A DNA stretch of 32,767 bases from Candidatus Pacebacteria bacterium CG10_big_fil_rev_8_21_14_0_10_56_10. Its GTDB lineage: Bacteria > Patescibacteriota > Microgenomatia > UBA1400 > PJMF01. The stretch spans positions 2,150-34,916 of the forward strand of contig PFDK01000007.1 in assembly GCA_002772645.1 (NCBI GenBank), written 5' to 3'. Position 1 is the first letter of the stretch; every line of letters starts with the position of its first letter. Below are positions 10,593 to 23,297 of this stretch, piece after piece. The notes below the pieces were generated by a model that did no database searches, was not told where the DNA came from, and saw only the letters and a list, made by a program, of their open reading frames with translations. The position numbers and the translations under genes were made by a program.

Positions 10593-11075
10593 CTACTTGA
10601 GCAAGAACACCGCCGCCAGCACCACTACTTGCGGGCCCAGGCCCAGCGCAATGCTCGAGGTGGAGTGATGGAAGAACTGGTGGAGGTCGTTGAGCGGCTT
10701 GAGCAAGGCCGGCTCCCAGTTTAGGAAGTTGCGCGGCGACTCCAGCAGATCAGGCATTAAGCTAACTGCCAGTCCGGCCCAGGCCGGCCAGTTGATCGCG
10801 GCTTGGCCATGCTGCCAAAACAGGTACACTAGTCCGACCGTCACTACCAGCTCAAATGCTTCCAGGATCAAGGCCGTTGATTTTTTACGCCGGCCGGTAG
10901 ACAGGCCGGTGCCCACGTCCCAGTGCGGGATCCAGTCTTCTAAGTAGTGCGACGCGAAGATCAGCGGCACGTACAAACCAGGGTGGGGGAGCTTAGTGGC
11001 GATAAAGGCCCCAGTCACCCCATGCGCGATCGACAGCATGGGTGGTATTGTAACGCGGCAGCGGTTCAACGGCAA
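10593..11075 (-). CDS. Hypothetical membrane protein
   Basis: 160 aa, several hydrophobic helices, His-rich motifs (SHYLEDWIPHWD, HQFFHHS); true start may be the internal MLSIAHG. Confidence 0.7.
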   Translation of the reverse strand: MPLNRCRVTIPPMLSIAHGVTGAFIATKLPHPGLYVPLIFASHYLEDWIPHWDVGTGLSTGRRKKSTALILEAFELVVTVGLVYLFWQHGQAAINWPAWAGLAVSLMPDLLESPRNFLNWEPALLKPLNDLHQFFHHSTSSIALGLGPQVVVLAAVFLLK

Positions 11076-11163: not shown

Positions 11164-12675
11164 ATGGCACCGACTCTCGCCGAACAGATCACACCGCAGC
11201 TCACAGCTTCCCGGCCCAACCTAGAAATCAACAGATTGTCTCCTCAAATAGAACTTTACGGTGGGCATCCGCACCGGGTAGAAACACGTGCAGTTACCTA
11301 TCTGTTTTGGAATACATTTGTCAGGGTTACTTCAGGTGATACCAGTATGGTACTTCGGGTGATAATGAGGAGTGACGATGATCTCGATATGGTTTCGTAC
11401 GATGTTTTTCAGAGCTTACTATCATATCAGTACCCCGACGTTGACCGTGGCAATTGGGAAAGGAAGATTATGTTGCTTGACTCGAGGACGAACCTGGAGC
11501 GGGAACTCGAGCCCGGCAATAGACGGCTTCGCCATCAGCAAACAACTGCCTTGCTTGACGCCTACCAACAACTTTTCGCGTCAGAAATAGACTTCATCCT
11601 AACCCCGGTTAGAGAGGGTTCGCTAGGCGGCCCAGGTCCCGACTTTACGGGGCGCCAATTTACACGGCGGCAAGACAGATTTGATCCACACGCTTGGGAT
11701 ATCGAACAAGAGGTGGCCATTGCTCGGATGATTAACACGCTTATCACTGATGCCAATCCTCGAAAATACAGGAAAACCATTCAAGAGTTTAGGGAAGCAG
11801 TGGTAGAACACTACCAAGTATTTGCCCAGCCTTTCGTTGATCTTCTCAACGCCCAACTCCGCCGGCTGGAATTTAGCGAAGTAGTAACTAACAACTCACC
11901 GGTTGATGCCAGCTTTTTTGACGACCGACGCCGTGAACAGGTAATCGAGTTAGACTTAATGAGCAGAAAGGTAGAGCAGGTTGTTAAGTACCCGTATCCT
12001 ACTTTCAGCGGGTTTGTCTACATTACTCTGTTTAACGTCTGGGGTAGTAAAGGCATCGATCAAGAGTTTGAAGTGGTGCGAGTTATCCAGACAAAGCCCT
12101 TGCTGGACCAGATTGACGGGCTGCGGGTAGACAGTAACTGTACTGACGGTGTTCACAACCTGGATAGTCACTGCGACTGTCGACAACAGCTTGAAATGGC
12201 ACTGTATGACTATGGCCTCAAAAATGACAGGAACGTAGTTATTGTCCAAATGGCTGATCACGAGGGAAGGGGGCACGGTACGGTCCTTAAAGGGGCTTTG
12301 CAACACGCTCCGGTGAGAAGACTGCAACTTCAACAGCCGGATATGGCAGTGAGCCATGCCCAAGTTGCCGAACTAGTTTTTGCCCAGGCTGACCTGCCGT
12401 CCGACATGAGAAGCTATGGAGCAGCTCAAGCTGTTATTCGGTTCTTAAATATTGAGCACGTGACGGCGGTCCTGACGAGCAACGGCGACAAGGTCAAAGC
12501 ACTGGAGGCGATAGGTGTTGGGTACCGGCAAGTGATTCAGCTCGAAACACCGAATGCCCAGCTCACTCAAGAAGCCAGAAATACCCTAAATTACAAACAA
12601 AACGGGGGGAGAGTTACCAATGCCGACAGGAAGCCAATAAATTATTCTGGCTCTGACCAGGCAGACACGCAATGA
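11164..12675 (+). CDS. GTP cyclohydrolase II (RibA)-like C-terminal domain with about 300-aa N-terminal region of unknown family; URC1-like candidate
   Basis: RVDSNCTDGVHNLDSHCDCRQQLEMAL (three zinc-site Cys), MADHEGRGHGTV (catalytic EGR), DMRSYGAAQAVIRFLNIEHVTAVLTSNGDKVKALEAIGV match the RibA order of motifs. Confidence 0.8.
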   Translation: MAPTLAEQITPQLTASRPNLEINRLSPQIELYGGHPHRVETRAVTYLFWNTFVRVTSGDTSMVLRVIMRSDDDLDMVSYDVFQSLLSYQYPDVDRGNWERKIMLLDSRTNLERELEPGNRRLRHQQTTALLDAYQQLFASEIDFILTPVREGSLGGPGPDFTGRQFTRRQDRFDPHAWDIEQEVAIARMINTLITDANPRKYRKTIQEFREAVVEHYQVFAQPFVDLLNAQLRRLEFSEVVTNNSPVDASFFDDRRREQVIELDLMSRKVEQVVKYPYPTFSGFVYITLFNVWGSKGIDQEFEVVRVIQTKPLLDQIDGLRVDSNCTDGVHNLDSHCDCRQQLEMALYDYGLKNDRNVVIVQMADHEGRGHGTVLKGALQHAPVRRLQLQQPDMAVSHAQVAELVFAQADLPSDMRSYGAAQAVIRFLNIEHVTAVLTSNGDKVKALEAIGVGYRQVIQLETPNAQLTQEARNTLNYKQNGGRVTNADRKPINYSGSDQADTQ

Positions 12676-13487
12676 AGTTCTTGGCAAAACTACAGGCCAG
12701 CATTGCCCGCAAAAAATCAAATGTCTGTGTGGGACTTGATAGCCGCTACGACCGCATCCCTGACGCGTTCAAAAACGGTGCCGGCGTTGCCGAGTCAATT
12801 CTTGCTTTCAATACCTCGGTCATTTCTCAAACTTACCAGTTGGCCGCCGCCTATAAAAGCAACCTGGCCTTCTACGCCGGGTTCGGCAGCGACGGCCTGA
12901 AAGGTCTGGAGCTGACCAACCGCTACTTGCGCCAACACCACAGCGACATTCCGGTGTTGGCCGACTGCAAGCGGTCGGAGATGGGCGCTTCCGTTTCTCT
13001 GGTCAAACAGGAAATTATTGAGTGGTTGAAGTTTGATTGCGTGATGGTTACGCCGTGGTTTGGTTTTGACACGGTCGAGGACTACTTGGACGATCCCCAA
13101 ATTGGCGTCTGTGTGTATGTTCACGACAGCAACCCTAGCGCTGCAGAATTTCAGGAGCTCAAGCTGAGCAGCGGTCAGCGCCTTTACGAGTACGTTGCAG
13201 AACGGGTGGCTGGGCACTGGAACCGGAACGGCAATGTTTTTGTAGAAGCGGGCGCAACTTACCCCTGGGCCCTCCAGCGGGTACGCCAGATTGTGGGTGA
13301 GGAGATGGTGATGTTGACCGCCGGCGTTGGTGCTCAGGGCGGCAAGCCGGAAGATCTAAAGGGCGCCTTTGGTCGGCACGGTAACGCTTTACTGGTTAAC
13401 TCGTCCCGGGGCATCATTTTCGCGGATGATCCGGCCGCGGCTGCCCGGGAGCTGCAAAAACAACTCGACCGCTGTAAGGAGGATTAA
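12672..13487 (+). CDS. pyrF: Orotidine 5'-phosphate decarboxylase
   Basis: VCVGLDSRYDRIP..., YKSNLAFYAGFG, VLADCKRSEMG, VMVTPWFGFDTVEDYL, LLVNSSRGIIFA; ATGA overlap with the upstream gene. Confidence 0.92.
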   Translation: MKFLAKLQASIARKKSNVCVGLDSRYDRIPDAFKNGAGVAESILAFNTSVISQTYQLAAAYKSNLAFYAGFGSDGLKGLELTNRYLRQHHSDIPVLADCKRSEMGASVSLVKQEIIEWLKFDCVMVTPWFGFDTVEDYLDDPQIGVCVYVHDSNPSAAEFQELKLSSGQRLYEYVAERVAGHWNRNGNVFVEAGATYPWALQRVRQIVGEEMVMLTAGVGAQGGKPEDLKGAFGRHGNALLVNSSRGIIFADDPAAAARELQKQLDRCKED

Positions 13488-16134: not shown

Positions 16135-17487
16135 GTGGTAAATCCGCAGGAGTCGGCACTGGGCTTTCACCATTATCCCGACCAAGGTGCCGGCGGAGGC
16201 GCTCACTCTGATCATTCTGAGGTGCGCCAACCGTCAAAGGAGCGCCGGGTCACGCTTTCACCGGCCATCGCCAAAGAGATCGAAGTCTTCGGCAATCGGG
16301 TGACAGTGTACTCCGCTCCGGGTGGAACTCTGATCGACCCTACCCTGGATAGACGCTTCGAGGGGGCGGTGGGAGACAACGCCTACAACTTCTTTGTGGA
16401 CTTCGGCGATTTGTTCGAAAGCCTTGGCATGGTTGGTCAGGTTCCCGAGGACCAAGTTTGGCGGCAACCGGAGGAGCTGCCCGCCGGGCTGGAAGTTTAT
16501 GACCTGCTTGCCAGCTGGGACCCGGAGGGTGATGATGAGGTAGTGGCCGCTCTTAACGGCATCGAAGGGCTTGACGAGAAGTTTGGGCTGTTTGGCTGGC
16601 TTGACGCCAGGTTGTGTGCTGAGTATCAGCAGCACGACCAGATAATAGCCAGGCAAGAAAAACAGTGGTTGGAACGACACCGGCCGAACAAACCTTTGCC
16701 GGTTAGCGATTACACGGCGGTCGGGGTAGTCAGGGCCGGGGTGCTGGCCAACCAGGTACTGGGTTTTGGCCCCGAGCTACAAGTGCTGGTCAACGCCAAA
16801 AGGCACAACAAGCGCGTTAACCATAAAGAGCTGGGCATTGGTTTGAACTTAACAGAGGCGCAGATCAATCGGCTGACAAACACCGACAATTTGCTGATCA
16901 GGGAGCGGGCCATTGCCTCCGGCTCGTCGGTGCTGGCTTTGCTGTCCGTCTTGAGATCCAAAGGCGAACTGCCGCCCAACCTTCACGTCGGGGCCACCGT
17001 TGGCGATCAGCGCGGAGTTGAGCAAATCCTCAAGTTTATTCGCTCCAAAGACGGCGACCTCGAGAGAACAGTGACCATGTTTTTGGGCAGTTTGGCTACA
17101 GAAATGAGTAGCGGCGACCACCCTTACTACATTCTACGGCCACAGCGCCCCGGCAACGATCGACAGTCCTTTGCCGTATCTGATGGAGGTGACTACGCCG
17201 ATTTATGGTTGCCACCGAACTTGAGAAAACAGTGGCAGGCTTACTACCAACAGCCCCACATTGAAGGGTTGCTGGAGCTGATGCCTGAGTTACGGCCTAG
17301 TGATGGCGGGCTAGCTTTGTCCTTCGCTGGCGAGGTCATTGCGCCGGGCGATGTTGTTGATGCCCAAACGGTTTTGAGCCTGAGGGACTACTACTTTCAT
17401 GTAAACAGCGGTAGTAAAAATGAGTTCGAACGAAGATTTGCCGTTGGCCAAGTACTGGCGGGTGTTGAGTACCAGTTAACTTTTTAG
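16135..17487 (+). CDS. Divergent uracil-phosphoribosyltransferase-like (PRTase fold) protein with long N-terminal extension
   Basis: VGVVRAGVLANQVLGFGPELQV...R, LLIRERAIASGSSVLALLSVLRSKG (cf. VVDPMLATGGSAxAAIxxLKxxG), DGGDYADLW (cf. GDAGDRLFG). Confidence 0.5.
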   Translation: MVNPQESALGFHHYPDQGAGGGAHSDHSEVRQPSKERRVTLSPAIAKEIEVFGNRVTVYSAPGGTLIDPTLDRRFEGAVGDNAYNFFVDFGDLFESLGMVGQVPEDQVWRQPEELPAGLEVYDLLASWDPEGDDEVVAALNGIEGLDEKFGLFGWLDARLCAEYQQHDQIIARQEKQWLERHRPNKPLPVSDYTAVGVVRAGVLANQVLGFGPELQVLVNAKRHNKRVNHKELGIGLNLTEAQINRLTNTDNLLIRERAIASGSSVLALLSVLRSKGELPPNLHVGATVGDQRGVEQILKFIRSKDGDLERTVTMFLGSLATEMSSGDHPYYILRPQRPGNDRQSFAVSDGGDYADLWLPPNLRKQWQAYYQQPHIEGLLELMPELRPSDGGLALSFAGEVIAPGDVVDAQTVLSLRDYYFHVNSGSKNEFERRFAVGQVLAGVEYQLTF

Positions 17488-18136: not shown

Positions 18137-18757
18137 ATGAAGCACCCAGAGCGTCTCAGTACCGCCGACAAACTAGCTGTTCTGCGCCAGCGGTTCAAGG
18201 AGGCAGCCGTAGTTAAAGATGCCGGCAAAGGGTACATCGCGGTGGAGCCGTTTAATTTGGTGATTGACCCCAAAATTTTACAACTGGCTTCGGAGTGCTG
18301 GGCCGAGCATTATCACGGTCACACCACCATCGATGCCGTCGTGGGGGTACCCGATGCCGGCAGCCGGTTAGTTTCGGTCCTGGCGGGCATGCTCGATGTC
18401 ATCAAGATCCTGCCTTCCAAGCGGGCCGGGCGACTCCCTGGGTCTTGGCAAGACATTGTCAGCTACTCCAACTCATCTTTCACGACCAACACCGAGAATG
18501 TCATCAGCCACATCGGCTTCGTCAAATCGGGCGACCAAGTTTTGGTGGTCGACGACGTGGTGGCCCACGGCAGTACTGCTATTGCCGCCATCACCGCTCT
18601 TCAGCAGGCTGGCGTGCAAGTAGTGGGACTGGCAGTGCTGTTCAGTAAACAGTGGCAGGGCGGCGTTGACAAGATCGAACGGCAGACCGGCGTCAAGGTG
18701 TGCTCGCTGATCCAGGTCGTCAAGCTGGGTGCCGACGGCCAAGTACAACTGAGGTAA
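18137..18757 (+). CDS. Purine/xanthine phosphoribosyltransferase-like protein
   Basis: QVLVVDDVVAHGSTAIAAITALQQAGVQVVGLAVLFSKQWQGGVDKI: PRPP motif with Xpt/Apt-like layout. Confidence 0.8.
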   Translation: MKHPERLSTADKLAVLRQRFKEAAVVKDAGKGYIAVEPFNLVIDPKILQLASECWAEHYHGHTTIDAVVGVPDAGSRLVSVLAGMLDVIKILPSKRAGRLPGSWQDIVSYSNSSFTTNTENVISHIGFVKSGDQVLVVDDVVAHGSTAIAAITALQQAGVQVVGLAVLFSKQWQGGVDKIERQTGVKVCSLIQVVKLGADGQVQLR

Positions 18758-18767
18758 AAGGGATAGC

Positions 18768-19595
18768 TTGCTTGAAATTGTTATTGGCACCGGCAAGAAA
18801 CATGATCCGTCTCGACTCGAGAACATCTACCCTGGGTCAACTGTCAAGGTCATCGACCCCGAAGTTTTGTTTGGGGAACTGGAACCGCTAGTAGAAAACA
18901 GGCTATCACCTCCTCAAAAACCGGCAACCTGGAAAGTAGAGCAGGTAGCAGAGCAGCAGAGACGCGCGGCTGCGCGGCTACCTATAGCTGCGGCGCTACC
19001 TATAATAATGGCCAGCGACGTGATGTTCTTGCGTCCCAGTGATGGCCAAATTCAATCTAACCCAAACCGCGTTGGTCGGCGGCAGGACTTAACTGCGCTC
19101 GAAGAAGAAGCCGTCGGGTGGTACACCAAGGAAGCATTCGATGCCCAGTGGGTAGCCTGGTACGCGGTGATGGCCCAAGATGACCACACCGAGCAGGTAG
19201 TTCACAAGCTGGGCTGGGTGGGGATCACCGCCTCTTTTGCCGAACCGTTAACAAGAGAGGAAGTCCAGTCATCATTCGACCCAGGTATCAACCCCCGGAT
19301 TCCCATGCTCGAGCTAGCTGAAGCTAATGGTGCTCAGCTGGCCGCCTATTACCCCGGCGGCGACACCAGGGAAACTATAACATTTGAACTGGCCCGGTTG
19401 CTGATCATCGATAAACTTTTGCCGGCCTGGGCCTTGTGGGCCCTAATTAGGGACGAAGGATACCCTTTACCTCCAAGTGAAGTCAGAGTTAGTAAAGTCA
19501 AAGGTCAACACTCAAACGGCAACTGGCTGACGATCAACAGCATTGGTTGGTATAGATACCTTGTCGAGTCTGGTCCGAACGGACCGATCCAGTAG
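18768..19595 (+). CDS. Hypothetical protein, weakly Maf/NTP-pyrophosphatase-like
   Basis: LEIVIGTGKKHDPSRLENIYPG, LPIIMASDVMFLRPSDG and WVGITASFAEPLTREEVQSSF loosely resemble Maf-fold positions; TTG start. Confidence 0.4.
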   Translation: MLEIVIGTGKKHDPSRLENIYPGSTVKVIDPEVLFGELEPLVENRLSPPQKPATWKVEQVAEQQRRAAARLPIAAALPIIMASDVMFLRPSDGQIQSNPNRVGRRQDLTALEEEAVGWYTKEAFDAQWVAWYAVMAQDDHTEQVVHKLGWVGITASFAEPLTREEVQSSFDPGINPRIPMLELAEANGAQLAAYYPGGDTRETITFELARLLIIDKLLPAWALWALIRDEGYPLPPSEVRVSKVKGQHSNGNWLTINSIGWYRYLVESGPNGPIQ

Positions 19596-20038: not shown

Positions 20039-21415
20039 ATGCCTTCTACCAACAAGACTTCGTCATCGGACCAAGTATTTCAGATCATCAACCGTGAGCG
20101 TCGTCGCCAGCGCCAGGTAATTGACCTGATCCCGTCGGAGAACCACGCCTCGCCGGCGGTCCACCGGGCAGTCGGCTCGGTGCTGATGCACAAGTACGCC
20201 GAAGGTTACCCTCGCCAGCGCTACTACCAAGGCAACGCCCACGCCGACCAAGTAGAGGACATCTGTCGCCGCCGGGCGCTGGAGACTTTTGGGCTTCAGT
20301 CCCATCTTTGGGGAGTCAACGTTCAGGGGTACTCGGGCTCACCAGCCAACCTGGCCGTGTACAATGCTTTGCTCCGGCCGGCCGAGACCATCATGGCTAT
20401 GTACTTGCCCGATGGTGGACACCTCTCCCACGGCTGGAAGTTTAAGCAGTTCAGTACCTTGGTGGGCAAGATCTGGAACATTCACTACTATCACGTGGCT
20501 GGCGACCAGCTCACCTTCGACTATGACCAGCTGGAACAAGAAGCTGTCCAGGCCCAGCCGCAACTGATCATCTCTGGCGGCACGGCCTACCCGCGCCAAA
20601 TTGATCACTATCGGATGGGCCGGATCGCCAAGCGAGTGGGCGCCTACTACTTAGCCGACATTTCTCACGAGGCGGGCCTGATCGCCGCTGGCGTCAACGC
20701 CGCGCCTTTTCGCTACGCCGATGTAGTAATGACGACCACTCATAAAACTCTGCGCGGCCCGCGCGGGGCGTTGATCTTCGGCCGCCGCCGGTCACGGATC
20801 AAGCCGGAGGTTGACGTGGCCTACCAGATAGACCGGTCCATTTTTCCCGGTATACAGGGTGGACCGCACCTCCACACCATCGCCGGCGTGGCTGTGGCGC
20901 TCAGAGAAGCTCAGCGACCGGCCTTCCGCCGCTATGCCCAGCAAGTTCTTGACAACACCCAAGTAATGGCCCGAGAGTTTAAACGGGCTGGCTATCGGTT
21001 AATCAGCGGCGGCAGTGACAAGCACTACGTCTTGGTTGATGTCCACTCACACGGCGTGGAGGCCTGGCTGGCGGCCTGGGCGTTGGAGTACGCCGGCATA
21101 GTGTTGAACCGCAACACCATACCCAACGAGAGCGGTTCACCTTACTATCCTTCGGGCGTCAGGCTGGGCGCGCCGGTCGTCACTACCCGAGGAATGAAGA
21201 CGGCGGACATCGAGCAGGTGATGGAGTGGCTGCTGGACGGCTTGGAGTACTCTCGCCGATGGCAACTGCCCGGCGGCGGCCAAGGCAACCAACGCCGTCA
21301 GCGCCGAGCGTACATCAGCCAGTTCTTAAGCGAGTTGCCGCGGGACCGTCATCTCAACAAGCTCCGCCGTCAGGTGACCGTTTTTGCCAAACAGTTCCCG
21401 GTGTTTAGCTGGTAA
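20039..21415 (+). CDS. glyA: Serine hydroxymethyltransferase
   Basis: IDLIPSENHASPAVHRAVGSVLMHKYAEGYPRQRYYQGN, VNVQGYSGSPANLAVY, THKTLRGPRGALI; GGAGGT RBS upstream. Confidence 0.96.
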   Translation: MPSTNKTSSSDQVFQIINRERRRQRQVIDLIPSENHASPAVHRAVGSVLMHKYAEGYPRQRYYQGNAHADQVEDICRRRALETFGLQSHLWGVNVQGYSGSPANLAVYNALLRPAETIMAMYLPDGGHLSHGWKFKQFSTLVGKIWNIHYYHVAGDQLTFDYDQLEQEAVQAQPQLIISGGTAYPRQIDHYRMGRIAKRVGAYYLADISHEAGLIAAGVNAAPFRYADVVMTTTHKTLRGPRGALIFGRRRSRIKPEVDVAYQIDRSIFPGIQGGPHLHTIAGVAVALREAQRPAFRRYAQQVLDNTQVMAREFKRAGYRLISGGSDKHYVLVDVHSHGVEAWLAAWALEYAGIVLNRNTIPNESGSPYYPSGVRLGAPVVTTRGMKTADIEQVMEWLLDGLEYSRRWQLPGGGQGNQRRQRRAYISQFLSELPRDRHLNKLRRQVTVFAKQFPVFSW

Positions 21416-21462
21416 CTTGGTGAGTTGGTGAGTTGGTAAGGCGTCGGTCCAGAGAGAACAAC

Positions 21463-22320
21463 ATGCGAAAAATTGGAGCCCACCTTTCCGCGGCCGGTGG
21501 TGCCGACAAAGCTGTCGAGCGGGCCGCCGCCATCGGCGCTAACTGCCTGCAGCTTTTTTCGGGCAGCCCTCGGGTATGGGCCCGCCGAGAGCTGGAAACA
21601 GTAGCCTTCGACAAAGTAGCGGCCAAGCAACAGGAACTGTCGGTCGCGCCGATCTTTACGCACGCGATTTACTTGACTAACTTGGCTTCGCACAAATCAG
21701 ACTTGGTCGACAAGTCACTCCGCGTGCTCAAGTACGACCTGGAGTTTAACAGTCGGCTGGGCGGCTCGGGAGTAGTGGTTCACTTGGGTAGTCACCAGGG
21801 CAGGGGCTGGCCGGCGATCCGCCGACAGGTGGCAGAGGTACTAGGCCGGTTGCTGGCCGACGCGCCGCGCAACTCGACCCTGCTGATCGAGAACTCGGCC
21901 GGCCAGCAGGGGAAAGTAGGCAGTGACTTGGCGGAAGTTAAGTGGCTGCTCGATACGGTTGGCTCTCGGCGGCTGGGCTGGTGCGTCGATACCTGTCACG
22001 CTTGGGCAGCCGGCTACTACTTGGGCAAGAGCGCTCCAGTCTCGGACGTCGAGTTTAAGTCGCTCATCGATGAGATTAACCGGCTCGAGCTATGGATTGA
22101 CCTCAAGTGTGTCCACGTTAATGACAGCCGCGACCCCTTTAACTCCGGCCGTGACCGCCACGCCAACCTCGGTGAGGGCCTAGTTCCCAGGGCAGATCTG
22201 CGCTACTTTTTAAACCAGCGGCACCTGCGCCACTTACCACTGATCTTAGAAGTGCCCGGGTTTGACGGCGACGGGCCCGATGCTCGCAACGTAGAGCTGT
22301 TGCGCCGCTTACTGCGATGA
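21463..22320 (+). CDS. nfo: Endonuclease IV (AP endonuclease)
   Basis: MRKIGAHLSAAGGADKAVERAAAIGANCLQLFSGSPRVW, LLIENSAGQQGK, GWCVDTCHAWAAGY, CVHVNDSRDPFNSGRDRHANLGEG. Confidence 0.95.
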   Translation: MRKIGAHLSAAGGADKAVERAAAIGANCLQLFSGSPRVWARRELETVAFDKVAAKQQELSVAPIFTHAIYLTNLASHKSDLVDKSLRVLKYDLEFNSRLGGSGVVVHLGSHQGRGWPAIRRQVAEVLGRLLADAPRNSTLLIENSAGQQGKVGSDLAEVKWLLDTVGSRRLGWCVDTCHAWAAGYYLGKSAPVSDVEFKSLIDEINRLELWIDLKCVHVNDSRDPFNSGRDRHANLGEGLVPRADLRYFLNQRHLRHLPLILEVPGFDGDGPDARNVELLRRLLR

Positions 22321-23297
22321 TGGTGTTTGACGGTCACGCTACTGCCCAGCGCCGCCTAACCACCCTTAGCCGGCGGGTCGACGCCTTGGCCCAACAGGGC
22401 ATTTTCCTCAAGATAGCCGCTATTCTCTACACCGAAGACCAAGGGAGCACATTATATACTCAACTCAAGCAGTCTGCCGCCCGGCAAACGGGGATCGAGT
22501 ACGAAGTGTTCCGTCACTCGCTGACCGCTCCCCTGACCCAAGTTTTAGCGAACATCGACCGGCTCAACCGCGACCCGACGGTGACCGGCATCATCATTCA
22601 GAAACCGCGGCACACGACTTGGCAGCGGGCCGCCGGAGTAGCCGCCGCTGGTCAGTCAGCCGCCGTGCGCCGGGCTTTCACCAGCTGGTGGCGCCTCCAG
22701 ACCGGCCGGCTGAGCTTGGCCAAGGACGTGGACGGTCTCTACCCTGAGGTGCTGGCGGCCATCAAGGCCGGTACTTGGCAAGAGCAAGGGTTGGTCTTGC
22801 CGGCCACCGTCCGGGCAGTAATGAGTATCTTAGCCGAAGCCGAGCGGCAGCTGCCGGAGTTTAAACTGGCCCGGCAGCGGGTAGTTATTCTGGGCAAGTC
22901 TGACTTACTGGGCCGGCCGTTGTTTTTTTACCTGCGCCAGCGCGGCGTAGACGTGGAACTGCTTGGCCGCGCTGGCCTGGCCCAGCGCCTTGAGCAGGGC
23001 AGGGGAGTTACCGACGCGGGAGTGGTGATATCGGCTACCGGTCATCATCACTTGCTGACCGGCGAGCTGGTGGCGCCAGGAGCAGTGCTGGTTGATGTCG
23101 GCGAGCCACGGCCGGATATCAATCTGAGCTCAGTCGGGGAAAAGGCCGCTTTTGTGACTCCGGTACCTGGCGGAGTAGGGCCGATGACAGTGGTCAGCTT
23201 GCTCGAGAATTGTTTGAGATTGGCCGTCCGCCGACCAGAACCAGCCGCTAACCAGAACCGGCCGCCACCGGTCGCGTTAGAGGCTTGGCCTGACTAG
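22317..23297 (+). CDS. folD: Bifunctional methylenetetrahydrofolate dehydrogenase/cyclohydrolase (FolD)
   Basis: TGIIIQKPRH, KDVDGLYPE, VILGKSDLLGRPLFFYLRQRG, VISATGHHHLLTGELVAPGAVLVDVG, FVTPVPGGVGPMTVVSLLENCL; ATGA overlap with nfo. Confidence 0.92.
   Translation: MMVFDGHATAQRRLTTLSRRVDALAQQGIFLKIAAILYTEDQGSTLYTQLKQSAARQTGIEYEVFRHSLTAPLTQVLANIDRLNRDPTVTGIIIQKPRHTTWQRAAGVAAAGQSAAVRRAFTSWWRLQTGRLSLAKDVDGLYPEVLAAIKAGTWQEQGLVLPATVRAVMSILAEAERQLPEFKLARQRVVILGKSDLLGRPLFFYLRQRGVDVELLGRAGLAQRLEQGRGVTDAGVVISATGHHHLLTGELVAPGAVLVDVGEPRPDINLSSVGEKAAFVTPVPGGVGPMTVVSLLENCLRLAVRRPEPAANQNRPPPVALEAWPD

Follow-up and report, generated by a model that had tools for sequence, protein, structure and literature searches.

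Two adjacent genes in the genome of Candidatus Pacebacteria bacterium CG10_big_fil_rev_8_21_14_0_10_56_10 are named ribA and pyrF by automatic annotation, and their translational coupling raises the question of whether the encoded proteins act in riboflavin and UMP synthesis, as these names imply, or in some other pathway that they share. OMP decarboxylase (OMPDC) is among the most studied of catalysts, and a natural, cyclohydrolase-linked clade of this family in which the catalytic Asp has become Glu and a new His-Asp-Glu set has appeared would be a rare instance of active-site repurposing. Annotation of such genes as pyrF and ribA also means that metabolic models of CPR (Patescibacteria) organisms would credit them with pathway steps that the genes probably do not perform. 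The question is a testable one, since both proteins of this small pair lend themselves to direct assay.

The host genome (G000) is a 0.95-Mb draft of CPR type that is 94% complete, and the window, by which we mean the whole stretch of 32,767 nucleotides that was analysed, is part of a 99.9-kb contig. The remaining genes of the window are ordinary housekeeping genes together with a few unknowns. Searches at the level of the genome were targeted searches only.

Architecture of the RibA-like protein

The first gene of the pair and its features are as follows:

11164..12675, + strand: RibA-like (GCHII-fold) coding sequence, 503 aa (open reading frame and PF00925)
11164..11967, + strand: N-terminal extension, residues 1-268 (no Pfam, NCBIfam or PDB match)
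11686..11958, + strand: part of the extension, residues 175-265, conserved in a Doudnabacteria relative (sequence match)
11968..12603, + strand: GTP cyclohydrolase II (GCHII) domain, residues 269-480 (AlphaFold; best Foldseek match E. coli GCHII 2bz0, E 1e-9)
12139..12180, + strand: zinc site CX2GX7CXC with exact spacing, C326-TDG-VHNLDSH-C337-D-C339 (alignment)
12262..12270, + strand: EGR catalytic motif, residues 367-369 (alignment)
12322..12324, + strand: L387, at the position of the RibA Tyr in KxxAYALQ (alignment)
12403..12411, + strand: D414-M-R416, equivalent to Asp-x-Arg128 of E. coli GCHII (alignment)
12672..12675, + strand: ATGA, a 4-base overlap of the RibA-like stop and the OMPDC-like start (sequence)

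The only occurrence of PF00925 in the genome is at residues 320-452 of this protein (E 1.2e-9; 38.4 bits against a cut-off of 23.3). The sequence-only reading of this DNA had recognised the zinc-site Cys residues, the EGR and the D-x-R in the C-terminal part, as well as the ATGA coupling, and all of these are borne out by the alignments. CX2GX7CXC is the defining zinc motif of GCHII, and the Asp-x-Arg128 of the E. coli enzyme forms the guanylyl adduct (PMC10366380). The best matches in both the PDB and Foldseek are GCHII entries, with UTP cyclohydrolase ranked behind them (2e-7). The AlphaFold model is confident from about residue 269 and has no confident part before it; because the first GCHII strands already lie at residues 269-309, with residues 269-320 belonging to the fold, the unrecognised N-terminus amounts to some 265 aa and not the roughly 300 aa first proposed.

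The match between this protein and the Doudnabacteria copy spans residues 175-317 (29% identity, E 5e-15), which indicates that at least that part of the extension is real. The true start codon is uncertain: codon statistics are weak across the first ~75 codons of the reading frame, and translation could instead begin at Met62 (nt 11347), leaving an extension of about 205 aa. Searches of 57 relatives, of 48 genomes sampled from the family and of 383 from the class gave no full-length homologue of the extension, and peptide-pattern scans of collections of genome contigs and viral contigs with the RibA-like protein returned no relatives. A phmmer search aligned residues 133-223 with PDB chains that are unrelated, and these matches were regarded as chance (E 0.4); the resemblance of the N-terminus of the G176 RibA-like protein to a decayed second GCHII domain was not significant (E 0.03). 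The AlphaFold models of both N-termini are of low confidence.

The RibA-like protein and riboflavin synthesis

An intact zinc motif, a retained catalytic Arg and GCHII enzymes as the top PDB and Foldseek matches are all features that an ordinary, fast-evolving riboflavin GCHII would display. Such an identity is nonetheless highly improbable. Against the TIGR00505 model the protein scores 42.7 bits, far under the cut-off of 205.85, and with a profile drawn from canonical RibA domains of CPR genomes it reaches 53.8 bits, where genuine RibA proteins score 220-298. Lumazine synthase (RibH, PF00885) was not found in the 94% complete genome, and RibD is represented solely by a short RibD_C/DHFR-like protein; the pathway check covered these two families. 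No other riboflavin family was found among the window ORFs scanned, as the sequence-only reading had stated. By comparison, a genome of the same family as the host (G015) encodes an ordinary RibA inside a RibA-RibH-RibD cluster.

The active site itself provides a further distinction. The Tyr of the KxxAYALQ motif, which is replaced by Leu387 in the window protein, is present in all 24 ordinary CPR RibA sequences aligned. Across 12 genomes it is kept in each of the seven with RibH and lost in each of the five that lack it (p 0.0013), the latter being the host, G014, G266, G352 and G176. Relative to E. coli RibA (PDB 2bz0), with which it shares the fold, the zinc motif, EGR and the Asp-x-Arg128 equivalent, the window protein differs in this Leu, in its N-terminal extension and in a 7-residue insert after the EGRGHG loop, as well as in the coupling of its gene to an OMPDC-like gene and in being encoded by a genome without lumazine synthase. 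It is very unlikely that it participates in riboflavin synthesis, and in this respect the earlier proposal of a non-riboflavin role stands.

Replacement of the active-site Tyr is also a feature of GCHII paralogues from Streptomyces, which form an altered product. To our knowledge these paralogues have no linkage to OMPDC-like genes.

Several unusual RibA-type genes were encountered in other genomes. In G222 (L045:8705-9301) a RibA-like protein lacking the Tyr is encoded with sulfatase-like genes on one side and an ABC transporter on the other. In G014, of the same family as the host, a Tyr-less RibA-like gene (L035:1681-3005) is followed by a gene for a small unrecognised protein that by eye resembles nucleoside deoxyribosyltransferases and has no Pfam support. 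An apparent triple fusion of DHBP synthase, GCHII and RibD (731 aa; L029:730-2925 in G125) is an ordinary riboflavin protein in an unusual form.

Relationship to URC1 and UTP cyclohydrolase

URC1, a GCHII homologue of uracil degradation, had been put forward as the model for this protein. On such an account the partner would supply UMP, and the substrate of the cyclohydrolase would be a uracil nucleotide whose pyrimidine ring it opens. Linkage to a gene of the OMPDC family accords with this, as do a UMP kinase gene downstream of one relative (G148) and a dTMP kinase gene upstream of another (L050). A GCHII homologue of solved structure acts on UTP (7eev, 7ej3), and the Foldseek alignment to UTP cyclohydrolase is the longer one, covering 282 columns compared with 193 for RibA, although the N-terminal part of this longer match falls in a region of low confidence. 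UTP cyclohydrolase and URC1 also have in common with the window protein the GCHII fold, an N-terminal extension and a role outside riboflavin synthesis.

The detailed comparison is less favourable. A profile built from the paired proteins scores 93.5 bits to E. coli GCHII, twice the 45.8 bits to UTP cyclohydrolase. The N-domain PF12471 (GTP_CH_N) gave no match in the RibA-like protein up to E 10, and the zinc motif is CDC rather than the CTC of UTP cyclohydrolase. The loci examined contained no other recognisable URC gene. The identification with URC1 has accordingly lost ground, and we regard it as unlikely. The GCHII tree contains no URC1 rows, since plasmid records, searched with PF12471 as a possible source of URC1 sequences, gave none.

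A divergent OMP-decarboxylase-family partner

The second gene and its diagnostic residues are:

12672..13487, + strand: OMPDC-family paralogue, 271 aa, member of the KxxEM clade (family model and tree)
12963..12983, + strand: motif DCKRSEM, residues 98-104; ordinary sequences have DAKR[GAN]DI (alignment)
13122..13127, + strand: H151-D152, invariant in the clade; ordinary pyrF has R/K/L-T (alignment)
13245..13247, + strand: E192, found in every clade member; each of the 33 ordinary sequences compared has V (alignment)

The name pyrF given to this gene by the sequence-only reading holds at the level of the family model and fails at the level of the active site. The protein scores 57.6 bits against PF00215 and 184.8 bits against TIGR02127 (pyrF_sub2; cut-off 110.6), and it shares with ordinary pyrF_sub2 proteins (PDB 3qw3) the TIM-barrel family, the D-x-K and the phosphate-binding Gln and Arg. 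Thus D98, K100 and K62 are kept, along with the phosphate-site residues Q222 and R246. The catalytic D-x-K-x-x-D is, however, incomplete, as its third Asp is replaced by Glu103, giving D-x-K-x-x-E-M where ordinary proteins have D-x-K-x-x-D-I.

Together with its nearest relatives the partner forms a separate clade of eight sequences (support 100/99). Glu replaces the catalytic Asp in seven of these eight, whereas Asp is found in all 33 ordinary sequences, and nine residues are common to all eight members and absent from ordinary OMPDC (S102, M104, T127, W129, F130, T134, H151, D152 and E192). Placed via the family motifs, these nine positions would lie in active-site segments or near the catalytic motif. 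The hosts comprise several CPR families, Doudnabacteria, Levyibacteriota and one bin labelled as a delta proteobacterium, and this distribution, which does not track host groups, suggests transfer. Further copies of the OMPDC family in G176, G352 and G148 indicate paralogy. In the host the partner is the sole family member found, and dihydroorotate dehydrogenase was not found there or in G148. The separate clade, the remodelled active site and the missing dehydrogenase together undermine the earlier idea that the coupling is to an OMPDC supplying UMP; it is unlikely that the partner is a plain UMP-making enzyme, even though the Asp to Glu change need not abolish OMPDC activity.

Recurrence of the gene pair

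Analysis of the clade shows that a GCHII-like gene lies directly upstream in six of the seven loci with upstream sequence, whereas none of the ordinary pyrF loci, 53 in number, has one there (Fisher p 1.4e-7). The six paired loci are those of the window, G176, G364, G259, a Levyibacteriota contig and a Doudnabacteria contig, the last with a decayed copy; at the seventh, in the delta proteobacterium bin (L052), a PfkB kinase gene adjoins the partner and no cyclohydrolase gene is adjacent. With at least five separate genomes or lineages carrying the pair, its recurrence reflects more than chance. The ATGA overlap is found in the window, G176 and G259. Neither a canonical RibA with a complete riboflavin pathway nor an unconserved linkage of the two genes was found, and their adjacency is conserved across several lineages. 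An assembly or binning artefact is hardly credible: the host genome is a fragmented draft and there is no genome of the same genus for comparison, but the window lies in a long contig and the pair is present in independent assemblies.

A single PfkB subfamily (33-45% identical) adjoins the partner in G176, G364 and L052; no PfkB gene of the G176/G364 type was found in the stretches examined around the window pair. In G364 the cyclohydrolase carries a fused HAD-like domain, which Pfam matches weakly and below its cut-off, and a gene for GTP cyclohydrolase I lies two genes upstream. A more distant version in G352 consists of a long RibA-like protein, an OMPDC-like protein with the usual Asp and a guanylate-kinase-like protein. 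In G269 (L046:8526-11603) a run of genes for a RibA-like protein (EGRGNG), a HAD phosphatase, a PfkB kinase and an SDR reductase looks like a related pathway that has no OMPDC-like gene. In G148 the OMPDC-like gene is followed downstream by a UMP kinase of archaeal type (L098:1129-1830), and with the dTMP kinase upstream in the Doudnabacteria locus (L050) and the guanylate-kinase-like neighbour in G352 it makes a link of the pair to nucleotide metabolism in general likely.

Some loci depart from this pattern. In the Doudnabacteria RibA-like gene (L050:603-1291) the core that bears the zinc site and EGR, equivalent to residues 318-401 of the window protein, is missing and the frame changes, while the downstream partner stays open to the contig end. 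This represents either decay or misassembly of a contig of 3x coverage, and loss of the zinc core means that the cyclohydrolase may be dispensable in this organism. As the paired cyclohydrolase halves are only ~20-28% alike and the GCHII tree is dominated by the long branches that join them, a single origin of these proteins is not proven. The system is also rare, with five clade members in a class sample of 383 genomes and that of the window alone in a phylum sample of 384. Scans of viral contigs with a peptide pattern of the partner gave no relatives, matches in phages and plasmids were of RibA type or ordinary pyrF only, and no description of the pair was found in the literature.

These observations also bear on whether the partner could be a working OMPDC for salvage of orotate or orotidine, with the cyclohydrolase as an unrelated or regulatory neighbour. 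Such a role would fit the TIGR02127 scores of the clade (178-188 bits, well over the cut-off), the retention of D98, K100, K62, Q222 and R246, the lack of a second OMPDC-family gene in the host and the PfkB neighbours, which could phosphorylate orotidine. It would leave without explanation the clade-specific H151, D152, E192 and W129, the Asp to Glu change, the coexistence of ordinary copies elsewhere and a pairing that recurs beyond chance; moreover, the phosphoribosyltransferase-like protein encoded at 18137-18757 of the window is no clear pyrE, its closest relatives being xanthine/adenine enzymes. Salvage of this kind is in our judgement improbable.

A proposed pathway

Both genes are unusual, and neither lumazine synthase nor dihydroorotate dehydrogenase was found in the host, which together argue for a role distinct from riboflavin and plain UMP synthesis. 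On balance we consider it probable that the two proteins are neofunctionalised enzymes of one nucleotide pathway that is neither of these. It is plausible, if more tentative, that this is an undescribed pathway, comprising the pair and an optional PfkB kinase and carried between very small genomes, in which the cyclohydrolase opens a ring and the repurposed OMPDC fold processes the product.

In such a scheme the RibA-like protein would bind a nucleoside triphosphate. The likeliest candidate is GTP or else a modified purine nucleotide, a weak preference drawn from the profile scores against RibA and UTP cyclohydrolase. The roles of zinc and Arg and the release of pyrophosphate are established features of GCHII chemistry; by analogy R416 would attack the alpha-phosphate with release of pyrophosphate, and zinc-bound water would open the base ring. 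With the Tyr missing, the ring-opened 5'-phosphate product at which the reaction stops, or which it releases, is probably a different one. The OMPDC-like protein could then bind this nucleotide via Q222, R246 and the D98-K100 pair and either decarboxylate it or cleave a bond in a related way, the altered base being recognised by H151, D152 and E192. Handling of the sugar phosphate might in several relatives fall to a PfkB kinase, to a HAD phosphatase that is fused or encoded nearby, or to an NMP kinase.

Other genes of the window

Two further window proteins are phosphoribosyltransferase-like. The one encoded at 16135-17487 carries a trace of uracil phosphoribosyltransferase only (E 0.047), and that at 18137-18757 comes nearest to xanthine phosphoribosyltransferase, its matches falling below every cut-off shown. 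The ORFs at 18768-19595 and at 10593-11075 (minus strand) have no convincing family match, the latter appearing to encode a small membrane protein. No homologues of the proteins starting at 16135, 18137 and 18768 were found beside other pairs, where the matches were ordinary pyrE-type proteins only. Finally, glyA (SHMT), an endonuclease IV-like gene and folD lie consecutively on one strand at 20039-23297.
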